Virus record (IMG/VR): IMGVR_UViG_3300024505_000286
Span: 1-50,167 of that record
Direction: 5' to 3' (one strand)
Length of the DNA: 50,167 nt
Source: a virus
Part shown: positions 13,773-34,645 of the stretch, piece by piece
Layout of the letters: each line of letters opens with the position of its first letter
Numbering within the stretch: the stretch's first letter is position 1
Notes under the pieces: generated by a model
What the model saw: the letters and a program-made list of their open reading frames with translations, nothing else
What the model was told of the DNA's origin: nothing
The model's database searches: none
Translations under genes and position numbers: made by a program

Positions 13773-15326
13773 TTAGAATTGTGGAATCTCTTCGATCAAA
13801 ACTGTACGAGACAAGTCTTCGATAAAGACATCACAACGGTCTTTCATCCAGATTTCATATCCTGGGAATTTGTTTGCAGAGCTCATACCCTGAGATTTGG
13901 CAAATCCCAAATGGTGACGAGTTCCATCAATATATCCCCAAGTCATAGAAGGTGCACCCTTCATACGAACTTCACGGATGTTGTTAACCATAGAACCATC
14001 AGACATTGGAGACACGTCAAATACCATGAATACAGGAGTGCTCTTCTTGTTCTGACCAAATTCTAAGTTAGTTTGAGGCAAATCCAATTCTTTCAAATGG
14101 ATGAGCTCAACACGACCAGTTTCACGTGTAACCATTGCATCGAATGCAAAGTTGTAAGTGATGTGCTGGCCTTCGCCTTGCAAATAACGGTTACCGCTAT
14201 CAGCCATGAATGTCAAACCGCTGTTCAAAGCGTCATTCTTCAAAGCTTGTTGGAACACGTCAAATCCAGCTTCGTTGGTGTACATTTTCACTCTACGATC
14301 TTTAACATCCACCCTTCTGTAGAACAAGTCTCCAAAAACAGAACGGATCAAGTTCGCAGTGAATTCACCACGGTTGTATTGTACCAAGTTACCGTTGTTA
14401 CGCATTCTGTGGTAAACACCAGCAGATGTACGCTTCAATTCTTGCTTGCTACCATTTGTTTTAACAGTGCCTGGGCGAGACCAAATCATACGCTTAACTT
14501 TCAACTCAAGCATAGACTTTCTCATCCAGAACTCGATGAATGGCTCCCATTTAACATCGTTACGAGTTAAAGGAAGTTGGTTACGTCTTTGAGGAGCGTA
14601 AACCAAGATATCCAAAGGATTACCTTTGCTATCTCTCATCATTTTGTCATCAGCCCACTCAGTGATTTTGTGCTCAAAACCATATGCAGAACCCAAAGAT
14701 TCAAACATTGTGATTTGCTCACCCAAACGAGGAAGACCTAACAAGTCTTGGTCAAATTCACCAATCGCAGCGTCAACTAGTTCAAGTTCAATGCCCACTT
14801 GCAAGAACACAGGACTAACGAAGTCTACAGTTGGATTGTCTGTAACCAAAGTGAAGCTATAAAGGAAGCCCATGTTCCAAGGAACTGGATCCTTAATAAC
14901 GTAAAAGCGAGGACCATATTGGCGAGAACCAACAGAAACGATAGCGTTCTTAGAGAACTCGTTTGTGTCAATTACCAATTGGAACTCTTGACCATCAATA
15001 CCAGGCTTGCTCAACTCAAGAGTGGAAGCAGGGATGTCGATGATTTTAGGGAATTTGTACGGAACAGCTACTTGCCATTTCCAAGCATCGCTATTATTAT
15101 CAATGTAATAAGGCGTGCTTTTGTTGATCATGTCTAGGAAGTCGTTGCTGTAAAGAGAGCTCTGTGTATAGAGGCTGATGATTTTCTTGTCGTAATCAGC
15201 AGGCTCAGTTGAGTGGAAGCTCTCCAGGTGGTTAGCGTCAGTTAGCTTACCAACAGCACGCTTGTCCATAGATGCGACACGAGCATACGTGAAGCCAGTT
15301 AGACCTGGGATTGTTTGAATTGCCAT
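13773..15326 (-). CDS. Major capsid protein
   Basis: A 517-residue protein, MAIQTIPGLTGFTYARVASMD. It is called as the HK97-fold major capsid protein from position right after the scaffold gene and two genes after the portal, from its size (crAss-like capsid proteins are about 490-510 residues), and from its body with many aromatic and charged residues and an N-terminal helical arm. I do not see a specific diagnostic motif, so the assignment rests on context. It is followed by a strong hairpin, as expected for a highly expressed gene. Codons such as GTT, GCT and CGT are used more than in neighbours, consistent with high expression. Confidence 0.75.
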   Translation of the reverse strand: MAIQTIPGLTGFTYARVASMDKRAVGKLTDANHLESFHSTEPADYDKKIISLYTQSSLYSNDFLDMINKSTPYYIDNNSDAWKWQVAVPYKFPKIIDIPASTLELSKPGIDGQEFQLVIDTNEFSKNAIVSVGSRQYGPRFYVIKDPVPWNMGFLYSFTLVTDNPTVDFVSPVFLQVGIELELVDAAIGEFDQDLLGLPRLGEQITMFESLGSAYGFEHKITEWADDKMMRDSKGNPLDILVYAPQRRNQLPLTRNDVKWEPFIEFWMRKSMLELKVKRMIWSRPGTVKTNGSKQELKRTSAGVYHRMRNNGNLVQYNRGEFTANLIRSVFGDLFYRRVDVKDRRVKMYTNEAGFDVFQQALKNDALNSGLTFMADSGNRYLQGEGQHITYNFAFDAMVTRETGRVELIHLKELDLPQTNLEFGQNKKSTPVFMVFDVSPMSDGSMVNNIREVRMKGAPSMTWGYIDGTRHHLGFAKSQGMSSANKFPGYEIWMKDRCDVFIEDLSRTVLIEEIPQF

Positions 15327-15352: not shown

Positions 15353-16642
15353 TTATAAGAACCATGAATTTTGTTTAGAAGGCTGTGCACCACCCACTGC
15401 TGACTTAGTTTTTGTAACCTGTCTAGCCACTTCCCCAAACAGCTCGTTTGATTTCTTTGAAACGCCTGTTCTTTGGATGGTAGATAATGTAGGGTCTTTT
15501 TCTAAGATTTTAAGCAGGAGAGCAACTTTCACCTTTGTTGCATGGTTCTCAGGTCTCTTCAATTCCAAGATGGTCTTGTCGAAATCAGTGAGGGTCTCAC
15601 CGTTTGCTGTCTTATACTTATCTACCAGCAGGAAGTCTTGTAGTTCGTTTGCCAACTTGGGATTGATGGGTATACCATCAAACTCCTTAGATTTCAGCTT
15701 GTCGTTAAGAACTTGCTGAACATTCTGGATGTATTGGTTTTTGATTGCTTGCTTTTGTTGGAGTTCTTGTTCAGCTCTTTGCTCCATTTGTTGGAGTTTT
15801 GCAGCTTCCTTTTTAACCAACACTTTATGGTGCTTTGTAGCAACGCTTTCCAAATCACCGTAGTTTTTGAGTCTTTCAACCTCTGTGTTAATGTCTTCAG
15901 TTTCAAAACCCTGATCAGCTAGTGCTTGTTTTATCACTGCCACTTGATTATTCTCTTGTGACAAATCCATTTCAGCAAAGCTGGTCACGTTATTATATGT
16001 ACCAAAGTAGTCCTTTGGATTAACGCCTTTTACGAATATAGCATCAAACGCTTGTTGATAATCTTCCCCAAACTGACCAATGAAGCTCTGCACCATTTCA
16101 ACAGCTCCTTTCTTCTTCTCATTTTGGAAGCGCTCAAGGAAAGCTTCAGGTGTAGAGATGTCAGCATCTTCTTCATCTTCATCCTTTGAAAAGACACCAA
16201 GTTTGAATAGGTCACGAGAAAGTGCGGTGAATTGACTCACTTGTTCTGTCTCCTCATCTTGTGATTCCTCTTCAGCAGCAGGAGCAGCTTCAGCAGGTTT
16301 TGCTTCGCCAGCTTTCTTCTTAACTGGTTGAGGATCAACAGGTTGTGTTTCTTCCTCTTCTTCATCAGTGTTGTCACCAAGGAAGTTTGAAATCAAGTCC
16401 TGAGCAGAAGGTTCTTTACCATCTTGTTGAGGAACGATTTCTTTTCCTTTAGGCACCTCAGGTTTTGGAGCAGGAGCAGGATCTTCTACGTTCTTTACAA
16501 TCTCTTGAATCTGATCAGGATTGCTTGTAGAAGTTTCAGGAGAGAGCAAGTCATTAAGAAGCTCTGCACCTCCAGGTCCCATTTCCATAGTATTTTCAAT
16601 ACTAAAGTTGCCAAATGACGGGGTATCAAGGTTCTCAGCCAT
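15353..16642 (-). CDS. Scaffold-like capsid assembly protein
   Basis: A 429-residue, strongly acidic protein. Residues 60-150 are Pro/Glu/Lys-rich and disordered (DEEEEETQPVDPQP, EEESQDEETEQ). Residues 265-325 form a coiled coil (KEAAKLQQMEQRAEQELQQKQAIKNQ). There is no protease motif that I can see. Acidic, coiled-coil proteins directly before the capsid gene are typical scaffolds. It has its own promoter at 16677-16707 and the leader AATAAACTACAT before ATG, shared with the gene at 12614-13582. The C-terminal 50 residues are basic, as scaffolds often are where they touch the capsid protein. Confidence 0.65.
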   Translation of the reverse strand: MAENLDTPSFGNFSIENTMEMGPGGAELLNDLLSPETSTSNPDQIQEIVKNVEDPAPAPKPEVPKGKEIVPQQDGKEPSAQDLISNFLGDNTDEEEEETQPVDPQPVKKKAGEAKPAEAAPAAEEESQDEETEQVSQFTALSRDLFKLGVFSKDEDEEDADISTPEAFLERFQNEKKKGAVEMVQSFIGQFGEDYQQAFDAIFVKGVNPKDYFGTYNNVTSFAEMDLSQENNQVAVIKQALADQGFETEDINTEVERLKNYGDLESVATKHHKVLVKKEAAKLQQMEQRAEQELQQKQAIKNQYIQNVQQVLNDKLKSKEFDGIPINPKLANELQDFLLVDKYKTANGETLTDFDKTILELKRPENHATKVKVALLLKILEKDPTLSTIQRTGVSKKSNELFGEVARQVTKTKSAVGGAQPSKQNSWFL

Positions 16643-16655
16643 ATGTAGTTTATTT
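16639..16655 (-). promoter_or_regulatory. Shared 17-nt leader and start (copy 1)
   Basis: The 17 nt around the scaffold start (AAATAAACTACATATGG on the minus strand) are identical to those at 13579-13595 before the gene at 12614-13582. The block has no Shine-Dalgarno sequence. It could be a translation-initiation element for late genes. Confidence 0.4.
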
Positions 16656-16676
16656 TAAGTTTGGTTTATACGTTTG

Positions 16677-16707
16677 TAAAAGTAATCAGAGTATATTGAA
16701 TAGCAAA
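16677..16707 (-). promoter_or_regulatory. Bacteroidota-type promoter for scaffold and capsid
   Basis: On the minus strand TTTG (16707-16704) is followed after 19 nt by TACTTTTA (16684-16677), one mismatch from TAnnTTTG. It lies 35 nt before the scaffold start in the 123-nt gap after the SPFH gene and would give the scaffold-capsid unit its own strong transcription. Confidence 0.6.
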
Positions 16708-16765
16708 GAGTTATGCATTTGTGTGAATGTTTTTCCCGTATAATATAGCATTAATATAATTCACT

Positions 16766-17296
16766 CTAATCAAGTTTGTTTGTAATCGTGTCATTTATGA
16801 GTCTAAAGCTTCTGATAGGGGCTATATCTGTAAGCGTAACCTGTTGAATGTCAACTCCCCATTTCTTAGCTTCAACCCTCACCTTCTTAGTAAGTGTATT
16901 GTCTATTTCTGGATCTATACACTGTTCTAGAGGTAGGGATATGACGATGTTCTTGATGATAGACTGGGTCATATCAGCCAAGGCATCCTGAGCATCAAAT
17001 ACTTCCAGGAGGAACACTTTGACATCAGATATCTTATATTTGACAACACCTTTAACAACTATGTTTTGTTTATCCTTTGTATATAGCGACTGGGCAGAAA
17101 GGCTCAACGTTGTTACAACAGCATGCTGCTGTATCACTTCATCTATAACAGGGAGTTTCACGTGGAACCCTGGTTTCAATACCTTCTTGAACTTACCAGC
17201 CCTTAGCAAAACAGCTTCCTCATAGTCTGGTATGATCACTGCTGGCATCAAAAAATTCCACCAATGAGTTATTAGGTCTATGAGTTTATCAAACAT
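16766..17296 (-). CDS. SPFH / band-7 (stomatin-prohibitin) domain protein
   Basis: A 176-residue protein. Residues 5-22 (LIDLITHWWNFLMPAVII) are hydrophobic and could anchor in a membrane. The SPFH domain follows: EEAVLLRAGKFKKVLKPGFHVKLPVID (26-52), the strand YTKDKQNIVVKGVVKYKISD (about 73-92), and WGVDIQQVTLTDI (about 148-160). This is essentially the whole band-7 core without the C-terminal coiled coil of stomatins and HflK/C. Cellular members scaffold membrane microdomains and restrain membrane proteases such as FtsH. The gene shares 1 nt with the portal stop and lies before the scaffold promoter, so it is made with TerL and portal. Its use by the phage is unknown. Confidence 0.8.
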   Translation of the reverse strand: MFDKLIDLITHWWNFLMPAVIIPDYEEAVLLRAGKFKKVLKPGFHVKLPVIDEVIQQHAVVTTLSLSAQSLYTKDKQNIVVKGVVKYKISDVKVFLLEVFDAQDALADMTQSIIKNIVISLPLEQCIDPEIDNTLTKKVRVEAKKWGVDIQQVTLTDIAPIRSFRLINDTITNKLD

Positions 17297-19878
17297 TATT
17301 TAGGTTTTTTAGCTCGATTTCTAGCGTTCACCTTTGCTATTTCGAGATCGTTCTTTTGGTTCTCTCTAGCCACCTTCAGCTTTTCTCTTTCGATTTCCAG
17401 CTTCTGTAAACTTTGAGAGTTCTTAGACTGAATGTCTGCCATCTTCATTTCATATTCTCTGCCTGTACGTGACTGTTCAGCTGCAATCTTCTGAATTTCC
17501 AGAACATCAGGAGCTCCACTCTTGTCTATATCTGTAAGAGGACCCACCTTAGCTTCAGCATTTATCAGAGCTATTTCTTTTTTATTGATTCTATCAAGTT
17601 CATTCTGATAGTTCTCATTAGCCATATCTTGTTCCTTCTGGAACTGAGCCTGTTGCAATTGAGACTGAGCAATCTGAGCTTGTTGATCAAGTTGTTGCTG
17701 TTTCAACTGGAGCTCACTATTTTGTAGATCCATTTGTCTGTTTCTCAAGTCTTTAAACACTTTCTTCATTGCTCTCATAGACTTGGTACTGTAAAGTTCA
17801 ATTACATCATACAATGTACCACCATTCTGGATGATAGCCTGAGAAAGACCTCTAAGCTCGTCAAACATTTGCTTATCTTCAGGACGATTTGTCAAGAATA
17901 CTTTCAAATCTCTAAACTTGAGATCAGATCCATTTACAGAAACAAATGCTGATTCACCTTCACTGGTGATATAACTTAGTGTAGACTGAGGCTTCTTGGA
18001 TTCTACATATAGGGCAGCATCAATGATTGCTTGATAGAGCTGACCCATAATATATTCGTGAGCTACAAATAATGGTTCTGTTTGAGAATAAGATTGTTGT
18101 ACAGCTGTGTTTACACCTGTAGCAGATTCACTGGATGTAATAGATCCCATACGTTGTCTGCTCATTCCCACAAGTTCCCAACATTCGTTCTTGAGCTGTT
18201 GAGCCAGTGTGTAACGAGATTGTATTTCCTGTGTACGTGTAAGATCAATGTCTCTAAACTGATTGAATGAGCTTGGACTCTTTAGATTCTCAGGGCTGTC
18301 GTCAATAAATACAACACCACGATTACGAGCTTCCATTTCCCAGATGTCTAGTGCATCTTGTGCATCACCATCCTTGGGAACGGGAATGTGCCTGATGGAT
18401 GTCAAGTACACCTTACCCACTTCCTTCTCAAGGAGCTTGTAAAGCTGGTTCATACAAACATTGTAGAGCACCTGGAAAGGCTTCATTAAGTCTACAAGAC
18501 TCTTAGCCTCTGTGTTCTTCACCTCAAATGTTGTACCAATGATGGGACAATAGTTGAGAAGATTAAACGGTTTGATGTGGTAGATGTCTGGACCAATCTT
18601 TGTTCCTTGATACCACTGATTTATCCATCCCCATTCTAGAGACTGCTGTGTAGGAATGGTGTTAGATTTGTAATTCTCATCTACCAGGACAGACTGCTCA
18701 TTTCCCAATTCATCCAGGTAAATGACCTTACCGATCTTCTTCTTACTAATCCAATAAGAACGGACAACAACATACTTGTATCCAAAAGAGGAAACATTTG
18801 ATGTGAGTCCTAAGAAGTCTTTCAGCCCATCGTTGTTCTCCTTCATTTCTGATTCAATAATCATACGTGTCTGAAGAACAAGAGGATCATATGTGTCGTA
18901 CATTACAGAATCAATACCAGGAATCGCATCAGGATTACCTAGATTGGATTCACGTACATTAATAAGTCCGTAGTCTTGAAGAGATGAACGCAGGTGATCT
19001 ATCTCCTCTTTAGTGAGATCAGGAATGCTCTCAATGATCTCTGAAAGCTCCATAACTTGAACAGTACCAGCAGCATAAGCACCTTGAGCTCTCCCTGTAG
19101 GGTCGCTAATCCACTTTCTATCAGGCGTTGTGAGAAACCATGTATTCTTTGGGTTAGCCACCTCAATGTTAAATCCAAGCTTTGAATTATCTTCATATAT
19201 GTGATAGAATTCTCTTCCTGATATAAGCATGTCACGAAATGCATCTTCTGATTTCTCCTTTAGATTGAACTCTGCCTTTTGACATGTCAATACATGGTTG
19301 GCCCATTTCTCAGCTACAGATGTATAACTGTCAAGCACATCTTTCACTTGCTCCATTGTCATTTGTTCTAGTTCCTCTGGATCAATCTCTTGACCAGTCA
19401 TTGCGGCTTGCTGAACAATCTTTTGCTTGGCTTGACTAATTACGTATTGTTGTAGAATGTCTGTTTTAAATTGCAGCTCTTCAGCTTTGCTGTCATCATC
19501 AAACGCTTTCACCCTGAATGTATCAGGACGCTTTGTGATTTCACCAACCAGCTCATTCACTGGTGTAGTCATGATGGAATACATCTTCACATATGCAGGA
19601 AGCTGTAAGTCAGCTGTCATGATGTCTGTAAATGATTTCACCTGTGGTTCTTGATAGAAGTCTTCCATACGAAGAATACCTTTTATCAAGTCGTAGTTTT
19701 TGACAAATGTATCACGGTTCTTTACATACTCAGCATAAGACTTGTTTGCAAAGTAGTCCATCGTGTTCTTTATCCAACTCTCATCCTGCTTCTCTTTGTC
19801 AGTTTTAAACTGATCAGGGAATATGTTTAGATAGGCATATCTAATCGTAGCATCCTTGGTATATCTAATGATAGCCAT
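17296..19878 (-). CDS. Portal protein
   Basis: An 860-residue protein directly after TerL, sharing one nucleotide with it. The portal core is within about residues 60-620 (VKSFTDIMTADLQLPAYVKMYSIM, NTWFLTTPDRKWISDPTGRAQG, and a helical stem segment SYSQTEPLFVAHEYIMGQLYQAII). The C-terminal 200 residues are a long Gln/Lys/Glu-rich coiled coil (QLKQQQLDQQAQIAQSQLQ and following), which could form the barrel extending into the head. The length matches crAss-like portals, which are large. The protein forms the dodecameric DNA channel at the head vertex and docks the terminase. Confidence 0.8.
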   Translation of the reverse strand: MAIIRYTKDATIRYAYLNIFPDQFKTDKEKQDESWIKNTMDYFANKSYAEYVKNRDTFVKNYDLIKGILRMEDFYQEPQVKSFTDIMTADLQLPAYVKMYSIMTTPVNELVGEITKRPDTFRVKAFDDDSKAEELQFKTDILQQYVISQAKQKIVQQAAMTGQEIDPEELEQMTMEQVKDVLDSYTSVAEKWANHVLTCQKAEFNLKEKSEDAFRDMLISGREFYHIYEDNSKLGFNIEVANPKNTWFLTTPDRKWISDPTGRAQGAYAAGTVQVMELSEIIESIPDLTKEEIDHLRSSLQDYGLINVRESNLGNPDAIPGIDSVMYDTYDPLVLQTRMIIESEMKENNDGLKDFLGLTSNVSSFGYKYVVVRSYWISKKKIGKVIYLDELGNEQSVLVDENYKSNTIPTQQSLEWGWINQWYQGTKIGPDIYHIKPFNLLNYCPIIGTTFEVKNTEAKSLVDLMKPFQVLYNVCMNQLYKLLEKEVGKVYLTSIRHIPVPKDGDAQDALDIWEMEARNRGVVFIDDSPENLKSPSSFNQFRDIDLTRTQEIQSRYTLAQQLKNECWELVGMSRQRMGSITSSESATGVNTAVQQSYSQTEPLFVAHEYIMGQLYQAIIDAALYVESKKPQSTLSYITSEGESAFVSVNGSDLKFRDLKVFLTNRPEDKQMFDELRGLSQAIIQNGGTLYDVIELYSTKSMRAMKKVFKDLRNRQMDLQNSELQLKQQQLDQQAQIAQSQLQQAQFQKEQDMANENYQNELDRINKKEIALINAEAKVGPLTDIDKSGAPDVLEIQKIAAEQSRTGREYEMKMADIQSKNSQSLQKLEIEREKLKVARENQKNDLEIAKVNARNRAKKPK

Positions 19879-21905
19879 TATGTAAAAAGTTTACTTTTTT
19901 TCCTTTTATTAAATAACCCACGAGATTCTGTGAACAACACATTCTTCTTATTGGGTTTGAATATCGCGCTCACTCTAGGATCACTGGATCCTCCCACCTT
20001 ACCAAGCACAGGATCCATCTTAAGAGCCTGAGCAATAGCAAGTTCTGCAGCCACAATACGGTCAAAGTTACCTTGATCGTTGTATTGGATGATTTCTTCC
20101 AACAGCACAGGATCAAATATCTTTGATACACCTGTCACTTCTTTCACTATCTTTCCGTCATCATCCTTCTCAGAATACACCACTTCCTCCATATACTTCT
20201 TCAGACAGTTGTGTAGATAGTCTCTGATTTTCTCAGAAGAACGGTGTACACCATAGTCACGTTTCACTGTTGTTCCAGGCACCACTTCCTTCAACCAATC
20301 AGGTTGCTTCTCTAGGTAGTGTGCATCTCCTTTTGCTTTCATATATTCTATGAAAGATATGTCATCGTTCTCACAAAGTGTACGTGCATTGAAATACTTG
20401 ATGAGAAGTCGTGCCTGTTCTTCCCAGGTGTCTTTCTTATCAGGTCTTGCACAATACGAAGCTACGAACATATCCTGATATTTCTCTCCTGTAATATCAT
20501 GCATTCTTTTATAAATGTACACACTACCAAGAGATGTAGAATACGCAGCTTGTCCTTGTCTGTATGGGTCAACCCCTGCTACATAGAGTCCGTATGGAGG
20601 ATTCTCGATAGGGAATTCGTATATAACAACAGGAGCATCTTTTAAGTCACTGTTCTTTAGAGGGAAGTTGGTTATTGGTTGTTTGTCCGTAAACTCGTGA
20701 CAAATCTTTTCACCGTCATTAAACAGAATAACAGGAGTGCCCGTACGCCCCTGCATAAGCAACCTACTCTTTTGACGTTTGGCTGCTTCTATATCAAATA
20801 TGTTTGTGTCCTCATTGAGGAAGATGTCATCCACTTCAATTGGATAGTACATCTTCTCTTTCAAATAAGCCACTCTGTCTCCAGCCTTCTTTAGTCTTTC
20901 TAAATTGTTTGTGGTGATTTCAAGAGCTTTGTCTTCATTGCTCACCAACATCTTAACATTATACAAGTCACTGTCAACAGGCTGTTCCAAAAACTCACCG
21001 AGCGTGCTTTCTTCTTTTGCCTCCATGCGATACTTATATGAGATAAATAACCCATGAACGCGCGTGTCATCTTTCTCATTGTTATAACTTAGGAAGTTAA
21101 AATTGTCTGCATCAAACATCAAGGATTTAGCATCCATGAATTTCTTCATATCACCACCTGTACCTGTAAGCAAAGGAGAACATCCCCAACCATAAGGTGT
21201 GGTGAAACCAGGCACAGCTGCCTGAAAACCTCTAAGGAAATTTCCCTTACCAATCTCATCAATAATTAGTTTACGTGGTTTTGTACCTGCAATAGCTTCC
21301 TCGTTATTACCTTCATCCAAGTTACGGATGAGGATTTGGGAGAACGGTATACGTTCCCCTCCACGAGTCTTGATACCTAGGGTGACTTGGTTTTTCCAAT
21401 TATCCTCCACTCTCTGCCATCTCCATGCTTCAGGCAAAAAGTTGAGGCCCTTGTCCAGCTTATCTGTGATCAGCTTTATATCGGGGGCATTTAACCCAGC
21501 GATCACATTCTGGGAATTTTCGTCAAACGTTGCGCCCCACCCTATGTAAGAAGCCTCTAAAACAGACTTGGCAAAACGTCTAATTCCTAGGATGACCAAG
21601 CCCTTTTTTTCTTGTTGTGCCCTGTCGATTTCATTTGTCACTATCCATTCGTTATCACGCAACAGGGGATTGGCATATTTCTGATATATTCTTCCACGCT
21701 CATCAACAACATCCACCTCTGTATGCCACATGTTCAGATGCCAGTATAAAAATGGGTTGATGTATACACCGCCCATCATGCAACCATTGAGACAAAGCTC
21801 TTTGTGAAAGTCATAGAACTGTTTATACTCCTCTGACTCACGGTCAGGCAGACGCCCCTGGTTAATAAACCAGTCTTTGTAGTCTATGCTTTTAAGCTCG
21901 CCCAT
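19878..21905 (-). CDS. terL: Terminase large subunit
   Basis: A 675-residue DNA-packaging motor. The ATPase has a deviant Walker A at 107-114 (GIRRFAKS, Ala in place of the last Gly) and Walker B with catalytic acid at 214-217 (IIDE). The LLTGTGG segment near 245 is the coupling motif. The nuclease domain begins near residue 450 with VAGVDPYRQGQ (first metal-binding Asp) and continues with ENDD and a late Asp near DRIVAAE. Both domains are intact, so it should package and cut. It is the first large gene of the leftward arm and overlaps the gene before it and the portal by 1 nt each. Confidence 0.88.
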   Translation of the reverse strand: MGELKSIDYKDWFINQGRLPDRESEEYKQFYDFHKELCLNGCMMGGVYINPFLYWHLNMWHTEVDVVDERGRIYQKYANPLLRDNEWIVTNEIDRAQQEKKGLVILGIRRFAKSVLEASYIGWGATFDENSQNVIAGLNAPDIKLITDKLDKGLNFLPEAWRWQRVEDNWKNQVTLGIKTRGGERIPFSQILIRNLDEGNNEEAIAGTKPRKLIIDEIGKGNFLRGFQAAVPGFTTPYGWGCSPLLTGTGGDMKKFMDAKSLMFDADNFNFLSYNNEKDDTRVHGLFISYKYRMEAKEESTLGEFLEQPVDSDLYNVKMLVSNEDKALEITTNNLERLKKAGDRVAYLKEKMYYPIEVDDIFLNEDTNIFDIEAAKRQKSRLLMQGRTGTPVILFNDGEKICHEFTDKQPITNFPLKNSDLKDAPVVIYEFPIENPPYGLYVAGVDPYRQGQAAYSTSLGSVYIYKRMHDITGEKYQDMFVASYCARPDKKDTWEEQARLLIKYFNARTLCENDDISFIEYMKAKGDAHYLEKQPDWLKEVVPGTTVKRDYGVHRSSEKIRDYLHNCLKKYMEEVVYSEKDDDGKIVKEVTGVSKIFDPVLLEEIIQYNDQGNFDRIVAAELAIAQALKMDPVLGKVGGSSDPRVSAIFKPNKKNVLFTESRGLFNKRKKSKLFT

Positions 21906-23919: not shown

Positions 23920-23951
23920 CAAAGATACAATGTTATTCTAACATGTTCAAA
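23920..23951 (-). promoter_or_regulatory. Bacteroidota promoter of the leftward arm
   Basis: On the minus strand TTTG (23951-23948) and TATCTTTG (23927-23920) are separated by 20 nt. Both boxes match the Bacteroidota TTTG / TAnnTTTG consensus exactly. The site is 15 nt before the first leftward gene and should drive the regulator, IHF and packaging genes. Confidence 0.8.
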
Positions 23952-33366: not shown

Positions 33367-34430
33367 GTTTTGAACTACTTAAACAAGAAGTGGAGCTTGG
33401 CCTAGCAGGGAGGAATAACGGTATACCCATGGGTTTTAATAGGCTAAATAGATATATTGGCATTCGTAAGAGCATATACTTCCTGGTGGGTGGTTTAACA
33501 GGCTCTGGTAAGACTAGCTTTATTGATGATGCCTTTGTTCTCAATCCATTTGACTGGTATATCAGCCAAACTGATCCAGGAGTGAAGCTACGCATCATAT
33601 ATCGCTCTATGGAGCGTTCTAGGACCTATAAGCTGGCTAAATGGGTGAGCAGGAAGATATTCATCGACCAGGGCATCATCATCCCTGTAAGCAAGCTATT
33701 GGGCTGGAATGAGAAGATGACCAAGGATGAGCATGATTTGTTCATGATGTATGAGGATTATATTGGCAGAATGGATGACATCATTACAATCATTGATGGT
33801 CCAGAGAATGCTGTGGGTATAGCCAAGGAGCTCAAAGCTCACGCTCTACAACATGGTAAGATAGAACAGGTGGATGAATATAACAAGCGCTATTTCCCCA
33901 ATCATGAGAATGAGATAACACTTGTGATTATTGACCACATTGGTCTACTAAAGACTACGAAGGACCAAACCACTAAGAAGCAGGCTATTGATAAGATGAG
34001 TGATGAGCTCAGATATGCTCGTGACTTCTATGGATATACGCCAGTGGTGGTGAGTCAGTTCAATCGTGATATTAGCAATCCCATCAGGATTAAGAATGGT
34101 GATGTTGAGCCTCAGCTAGAAGATTTTGCTGAGAGTTCACAGACACAGAATGATGCTGATGTTGTATTAGCCCTGTTTGATCCTATGCGCTATAAGGTGG
34201 CTGACCCAAGTGGTTATGACCTGAATAAGCTGAAGGACCAATATGGTGCTAAGTATTTTAGAAACCTTAGGTTGATAAAGAATTCCTATGGTGAAGATGA
34301 TGTGCGCATTGGTCTTGGTTTTATGGGCCAGATCGGTATGTTCAAAGAACTGCCTAAACGCAATGTAATGACAGACGCTGATTATGAGGCAGTGATTAAC
34401 AAATCCTATTTTTTAAATAACCAACTATGA
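33363..34430 (+). CDS. DnaB-like replicative helicase
   Basis: A 355-residue RecA-fold ATPase. Walker A is GGLTGSGKT (43-51), Walker B is TLVIIDHIGL with D191, and SQFNRDI near 240 corresponds to the DnaB H3/H4 region. The protein lacks the N-terminal primase-binding domain of bacterial DnaB (about 470 residues), as do many phage helicases. It should unwind the fork 5'-3' as a hexamer. It is overlapped by 4 nt on each side. Confidence 0.85.
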   Translation: MSFELLKQEVELGLAGRNNGIPMGFNRLNRYIGIRKSIYFLVGGLTGSGKTSFIDDAFVLNPFDWYISQTDPGVKLRIIYRSMERSRTYKLAKWVSRKIFIDQGIIIPVSKLLGWNEKMTKDEHDLFMMYEDYIGRMDDIITIIDGPENAVGIAKELKAHALQHGKIEQVDEYNKRYFPNHENEITLVIIDHIGLLKTTKDQTTKKQAIDKMSDELRYARDFYGYTPVVVSQFNRDISNPIRIKNGDVEPQLEDFAESSQTQNDADVVLALFDPMRYKVADPSGYDLNKLKDQYGAKYFRNLRLIKNSYGEDDVRIGLGFMGQIGMFKELPKRNVMTDADYEAVINKSYFLNNQL

Positions 34431-34645
34431 ACGTGAAATTATTCTCCACTTTTCCAAGTGAGAAAGAACCCTACTGGCAAATTGTATTATTACCCACAAT
34501 AACAATCCTGAGAAGTCCTGATCCTTTAGATAGATACACAGTGATCAACCTGGAGTGGCTTTTCTGGAGCGTGTCAATATTTACACATGACAAAGAAAGA
34601 CTATCTAACAGTGAGGATGACAAATCCTACTATACTAATATATGA
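34427..34645 (+). CDS. Small hypothetical protein
   Basis: A 72-residue protein, MNVKLFSTFPSEKEPYWQIVLLP. It is coupled to the helicase stop by ATGA, which supports it as real. Residues 17-60 are hydrophobic in patches (TITILRSPDPLDRYTVINLEWLFWSVSIF). It overlaps the next gene by 29 to 59 nt. The function is unknown. Confidence 0.5.
   Translation: MNVKLFSTFPSEKEPYWQIVLLPTITILRSPDPLDRYTVINLEWLFWSVSIFTHDKERLSNSEDDKSYYTNI

Follow-up and report, generated by a model that had tools for sequence, protein, structure and literature searches.

A minimal SPFH protein gene in a variable slot between the portal and scaffold genes of crAss-like phages

The gap between the portal and scaffold genes in a clade of crAss-like phages is, with high confidence, a cargo ('moron') slot, and a gene for a short SPFH protein is its commonest content. 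The carriers of this gene are a family of aquatic crAss-like phages. Since close relatives have no SPFH gene in the slot or hold other content there, the gene is probably optional and host-manipulating, and not a part of the virus shell. The best overall explanation is a cargo SPFH protein that targets SPFH/FtsH membrane platforms of the host at a late stage of infection, for which the chances appear about even. The specific mechanism, which would lead from the fold to a host target, is proposed with moderate confidence.

The SPFH gene and its operon

The window (the whole stretch of DNA analysed, a 50-kb IMG/VR record of 50,167 nucleotides) contains an operon that was also found, identical, on a 110-kb contig. 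The capsid, portal and TerL proteins matched PF23898, phrog_6547 and phrog_6681, respectively, and the genes follow the crAss-like order; by these sequence matches the phage is crAss-like (Crassvirales). The features of the region are:

13773-15326, minus strand: crAss-like major capsid protein, 517 aa (PF23898 Crass_capsid, 8.1e-26)
15353-16642, minus strand: putative scaffold protein, 429 aa (named from its place between the portal and capsid genes; phrog_16294, function unknown)
16643-16765, minus strand: conserved intergenic 3' boundary of the slot (TAG followed by AGTgAAttatATTAATGCTATATTAT...), seen when full slots, empty slots and slots with other cargo were aligned
16677-16707, minus strand: promoter-like site TTTG-N19-TAnnTTTA of Bacteroidota type, upstream of the scaffold and capsid genes and kept in relatives
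16766-17296, minus strand: SPFH/Band-7 gene, type A, 176 aa (amphipathic N-terminal helix at residues 2-16, SPFH1 and SPFH2, without a C-terminal coiled coil)
17296-19878, minus strand: portal protein, 860 aa (phrog_6547 portal, 2.7e-98); its stop overlaps the SPFH start
19878-21905, minus strand: terminase large subunit (TerL), 675 aa (phrog_6681, 2.3e-88), in one transcription unit with portal and SPFH
23920-23951, minus strand: promoter-like site of Bacteroidota type, upstream of the unit running from 23905 to 16766 that ends with SPFH

The preliminary description of this DNA had proposed a complete SPFH core at 16766-17296, and both the position and the core were confirmed; the minus strand, which it had left out, is added here. 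Band_7/SPFH (PF01145) is the sole Pfam family matched by the 176-aa protein, with 88.4 bits (cut-off 23.6; E 7.7e-25, residues 21-160). The NCBIfam equivalogs hflK (70 bits, cut-off 159.4) and hflC (51.9 bits, cut-off 134.4) both scored under their cut-offs, and a phmmer search of the PDB matched stomatin (3e-11), QmcA (8e-10) and HflK (2e-6). An AlphaFold model built from a diverse alignment (pLDDT 82, pTM 0.66) superseded an earlier one with pLDDT 70. It has the SPFH1-SPFH2 fold, and its query-normalised TM score was 0.77 to stomatin over almost the full length and 0.75 to HflK and QmcA, with HflC also matched. The comparison with HflK/C suggested in the preliminary description gave a match, though stomatin ranks first. 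The model stops after SPFH2, and the coiled coil that forms the HflK/C cages is missing.

The N-terminal segment, described earlier as hydrophobic, falls short of a clear membrane span. The best 19-residue Kyte-Doolittle mean of the N-terminus was 0.9-1.5, where the usual membrane-span threshold is 1.6, and no transmembrane span was predicted in the protein. The hydrophobic moment of this segment (0.64-0.80) indicates a strongly amphipathic helix.

Among the 73 SPFH-A loci with distinct portals, the protein is 174-176 aa long in all 73 and exactly 176 aa in 71. The dN/dS ratio was 0.086 for SPFH-A, 0.091 for terL and 0.102 for the portal gene, and the SPFH minimum falls in the SPFH core. A missing SPFH match, or a degraded gene absent from relatives, had been named as grounds against the earlier reading; the gene is instead conserved. 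It is neither degraded nor a chance reading frame, since many related phages keep it at this position and it is under purifying selection.

The location between portal and scaffold in the packaging operon, and the coupling to the portal gene by 1 nt, were also seen as described earlier. The scaffold is named by its position; the ORF is acidic and lies just ahead of the capsid gene, which is consistent with a scaffold. The stop of the portal gene and the start of the SPFH gene share one nucleotide (TAATG); of the 73 SPFH-A loci, 34 have a gap of -1 nt between the two genes and 32 a gap of +2 nt. The SPFH start follows the portal gene without a gap, and the promoter-like site of the scaffold comes after SPFH. 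The TTTG-N19-TAnnTTTA site before the scaffold gene matches the Bacteroidota promoter consensus. From the placement of the promoter-like sites, SPFH is the last gene of the TerL-portal unit, ahead of the scaffold-capsid promoter. The window contains the pattern TTTG-N18-20-TAnnTTTR 8 times, where 1.64 occurrences would be expected, and none of 100 shuffles reached as many. This excess suggests that the phage probably infects Bacteroidota, judged by its promoters.

Content of the portal-scaffold slot

The preliminary description had suggested looking for the same gene between portal and scaffold in related genomes, and many such relatives were found in IMG/VR. SPFH relatives are encoded by 131 contigs; in the best 80 of these 131, the gene lies directly before the scaffold and capsid genes, and after the portal gene wherever the contig reaches that far. 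Exactly one Band_7 gene was found in each of 11 longer genomes (104–116 kb), which came from the SPFH searches. No close SPFH relatives were found in bacterial genomes by scans of genome contigs. Gut crAss-like phages already known, such as cr10_1, have the same TerL–portal–...–scaffold–capsid order with other genes at the slot. Among named phages, Leptolyngbya phage Lbo-JY46 is the closest relative, with identities of about 29% in the portal and about 26% in the capsid, and no SPFH gene was found between its portal and scaffold genes.

For an account of the slot without selection for SPFH, contigs were collected by a portal scan, using an alignment in which the distant Lbo-JY46 portal came first. 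The contigs were ranked by their similarity to that distant portal, and the 54 considered here, all with a clade-type portal and scaffold, come from the head of the ranking; they are not a random sample. Their slots hold SPFH-A in 28 cases, nothing in 20, other small ORFs in 4, and SPFH-B and SPFH-C in one each; thus 24 of the 54 sampled close relatives (about 44%) have no SPFH in the slot. Four near-complete genomes (110–117 kb) whose slot is empty gave no PF01145 match anywhere. SPFH is missing from the slot of close relatives whose portals are 80-89% identical. A tree of 106 portals showed at least 12 changes of slot state, at least 9 of them between SPFH and none; it is a quick tree, on which gain and loss are not distinguishable. 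The 73 SPFH-A loci in this set are an overestimate, since SPFH itself led to many of them. Sister portals, for example L015 with SPFH and L239 with an empty slot, differ in slot state.

The borders of the slot are precise. On the 5' side the slot is bounded by the portal stop codon, and on the 3' side by a conserved intergenic stretch of about 120 bases running from the SPFH stop (TAG, then AG...), which is retained in slots that are empty or hold other cargo. Precise presence or absence among close relatives with conserved flanks, which marks a moron or cargo gene, was observed here. In tailed phages, the operon for head and packaging genes is generally seen as a fixed core, whereas this slot varies between close relatives; it is a warning against inferring structural roles from gene position alone.

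Divergent SPFH types were also found. Types B and C share 25–29% identity with type A and are found in the same slot in the same clade; type B includes 11 loci (65–100% identical to L211). Types D and E are placed upstream of terL in distant relatives: type D, with 57% identity to A, in L164, a phage whose portal and capsid are 26–28% identical to those of the window, and type E in L187. All types from A to E match Band_7, are 173–202 aa long and terminate after SPFH2, and so are minimal SPFH proteins. This distribution indicates that SPFH genes have moved horizontally between crAss-like phages and that a minimal SPFH has been used repeatedly near the packaging genes.

Several slots contain further ORFs. 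An extra ORF of 66–68 aa lies between portal and SPFH in L016, L019 and L217. In L090 and L092 an ORF of at most 140 aa occupies this place, with cysteine pairs and a cysteine/histidine pattern resembling, by eye, that of an HNH/endonuclease VII type enzyme; it could be a candidate driver of slot exchange. Two small ORFs (78-80 aa and 84 aa) replace SPFH in L222 and L249; the 84-aa ORF has an HExxH motif (HEHFH) and no Pfam match. The slots of L221 and L255 hold a 73-aa ORF, also with no Pfam match.

Possible functions of the SPFH protein

Co-transcription with TerL and portal suggests that SPFH is probably a late product. The amphipathic N-terminal helix is predicted to attach the protein to the membrane, presumably on the cytoplasmic face of the inner membrane. 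Since the coiled coil that closes the HflK/C or stomatin cages is missing, the minimal SPFH1-SPFH2 module would most likely oligomerise with, or disturb, host platforms of the HflK/C, QmcA or stomatin type. Access to FtsH, whose control was also considered in the preliminary description, or the organisation of the membrane, might thereby be altered while virions are produced. HflKC encloses FtsH as a cage, and protects lambda CII or affects its proteolysis (PMC12005517). NfeD (PF01957) was not found in 17 phage records, and the phages encode no FtsH; the SPFH, NfeD and FtsH families were all present in a Bacteroides control genome. Because the phages have neither FtsH nor NfeD, the partners of SPFH, if any, would be host proteins. 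A more speculative form of this idea, which is possible at best, is that the 'cap-less' phage SPFH is a dominant-negative subunit in host SPFH rings, opening or blocking the FtsH cage, and that divergent alleles are swapped to match hosts. If SPFH does act on host SPFH/FtsH complexes, crAss-like phages would have a late host-control function, and the protein would be a natural reagent for probing these complexes in Bacteroidota.

Alternatively, SPFH might be a late inner-membrane protein for lysis timing, superinfection exclusion or counter-defence, independent of the host SPFH/FtsH complex. An accessory role that depends on hosts or rivals would fit the patchy presence and the divergent alleles in one slot equally well, and the remaining slot content consists of small unknown ORFs. 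However, no lysis or defence genes linked to SPFH were found. When the gene content of 5 SPFH-A genomes was compared with that of 4 genomes without SPFH-A, a single other ORF (70 aa, function unknown) tracked SPFH-A. In a wider comparison it occurred in 13 of 15 SPFH-A genomes and in 1 of the 6 remaining genomes (Fisher p 0.006), an association confounded by phylogeny. This alternative is a minority possibility, though a real one. The 70-aa ORF lies at 19741-19950 (minus strand) of L295, and a related ORF is near 34429-34590 (plus strand) of the window.

The preliminary description had also considered that SPFH tethers head assembly to the membrane. It might, for example, form an inner-membrane ring that holds the portal during procapsid nucleation, in a role like that of T4 gp40; prohead assembly in T4 begins with a portal bound to the membrane, and this portal depends on the phage-encoded chaperone gp40 (PMC9958956). 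The SPFH gene directly follows the portal gene and overlaps its stop, and SPFH is still beside terL in distant relatives. In L074 and L081, the C-terminal region of the portal and SPFH have diverged jointly, with the rest of the operon close. The recombination of the two as a block in L074 was dropped as proof; it is weak evidence, because the portal C-terminus varies in every pair compared. The evolution of SPFH showed no specific coupling to portal or scaffold (partial correlations up to 0.43, in a weak test), and its correlations with the C-terminal windows of the portal (0.06 and 0.28) were not above those with TerL windows (up to 0.41). A general requirement like that for gp40 is countered by the absence of SPFH from relatives, including the slots next to 80-89% identical portals and the four genomes without any SPFH. 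Tethering as a required function was therefore not upheld, and a head-assembly platform or chaperone is unlikely, although a non-essential gene can still be used as an assembly aid in some hosts.

The other structural role considered earlier was that of a virion part, for example a packaged or ejected SPFH that makes a membrane pore or seal at DNA entry. SPFH does sit among structural genes, and a role in adsorption or DNA entry was guessed for a phage SPFH lipoprotein (PMC13239085). But SPFH is missing from close relatives that share the portal and capsid genes, and neither the 24 SPFH-free slots nor the four near-complete genomes agree with a required virion part. This role is very unlikely, and ranks below the assembly aid and the lysis, exclusion or counter-defence roles. 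Finally, a selfish or neutral passenger of a mobile slot, without important function, would explain that the slot content changes often, at times with an HNH-like ORF, yet it is highly improbable, since the low dN/dS, the nearly fixed length and the recurrent use of different SPFH types argue for function.

Comparison with known SPFH systems

SPFH-A shares the SPFH1-SPFH2 fold along its full length, and the canonical sequence signature, with stomatin, HflK, HflC and QmcA. It differs from them in having no C-terminal coiled coil or cap, and is only 18-25% identical. HflK and HflC are defined by an N-terminal transmembrane helix and a C-terminal coiled coil (PMC12005517); SPFH-A has neither, and carries an amphipathic helix in place of the transmembrane one. 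The phages also differ from SPFH-NfeD operons of the QmcA-YbbJ type, as the NfeD partner is missing.

Other phages encode SPFH proteins too. The phrog_200 SPFH lipoproteins occur in Cellulophaga phage phi17:2, the crAss-like phage cr128_1 and Leptolyngbya phage Lbo-JY46. They are about 260 aa long, with a longer C-terminus than SPFH-A, and the Lbo-JY46 protein has a lipobox-like signal and is 15% identical to SPFH-A. No lipobox was seen in the SPFH-A sequence by eye, and the phrog_200 match to SPFH-A was partial (35 bits, residues 20-160 only). In cr128_1 and phi17:2 the gene lies away from the packaging genes, unlike SPFH-A. The Lbo-JY46 lipoprotein (PP438436.1, 3866-4648; L261) is 63% identical to the Cellulophaga phage proteins. 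Given this Cellulophaga-like SPFH and the crAss-like backbone, the stated cyanobacterial host of Lbo-JY46 may deserve a check.

Short SPFH proteins were also found elsewhere. The 'HflK protein' A0A6J7WFI0 of an uncultured Caudovirales phage (173 aa) is a minimal SPFH as here, and of all viral proteins it gave the best match by structure, with E 7e-14 and 31% identity. The podovirus ctgrD200, an unrelated 45-kb phage, has a short 'prohibitin-like protein' gene directly after terL (MW202733.1, 40885-41403; L084), which is 23% identical; no relatives of this terL-adjacent SPFH were found in viral contigs.

SPFH genes in phages were already known (PMC8540360, PMC4936722). In Pseudomonas phages (Bruynoghevirus, KPP10, PAK-P3), SPFH is likewise patchy among close relatives; these are different phages, and a portal-scaffold slot is not among the features described in the available part of PMC8540360. 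A limited literature search found no publication on SPFH, prohibitin or band 7 proteins of crAss-like phages, on the minimal type or on the slot. The earlier suggestion of an undescribed phage system was therefore too strong: phage SPFH proteins as such are known, both from PMC8540360 and from the annotation of cr128_1, whereas the minimal subtype without a coiled coil and the portal–scaffold cargo slot seem to be new.
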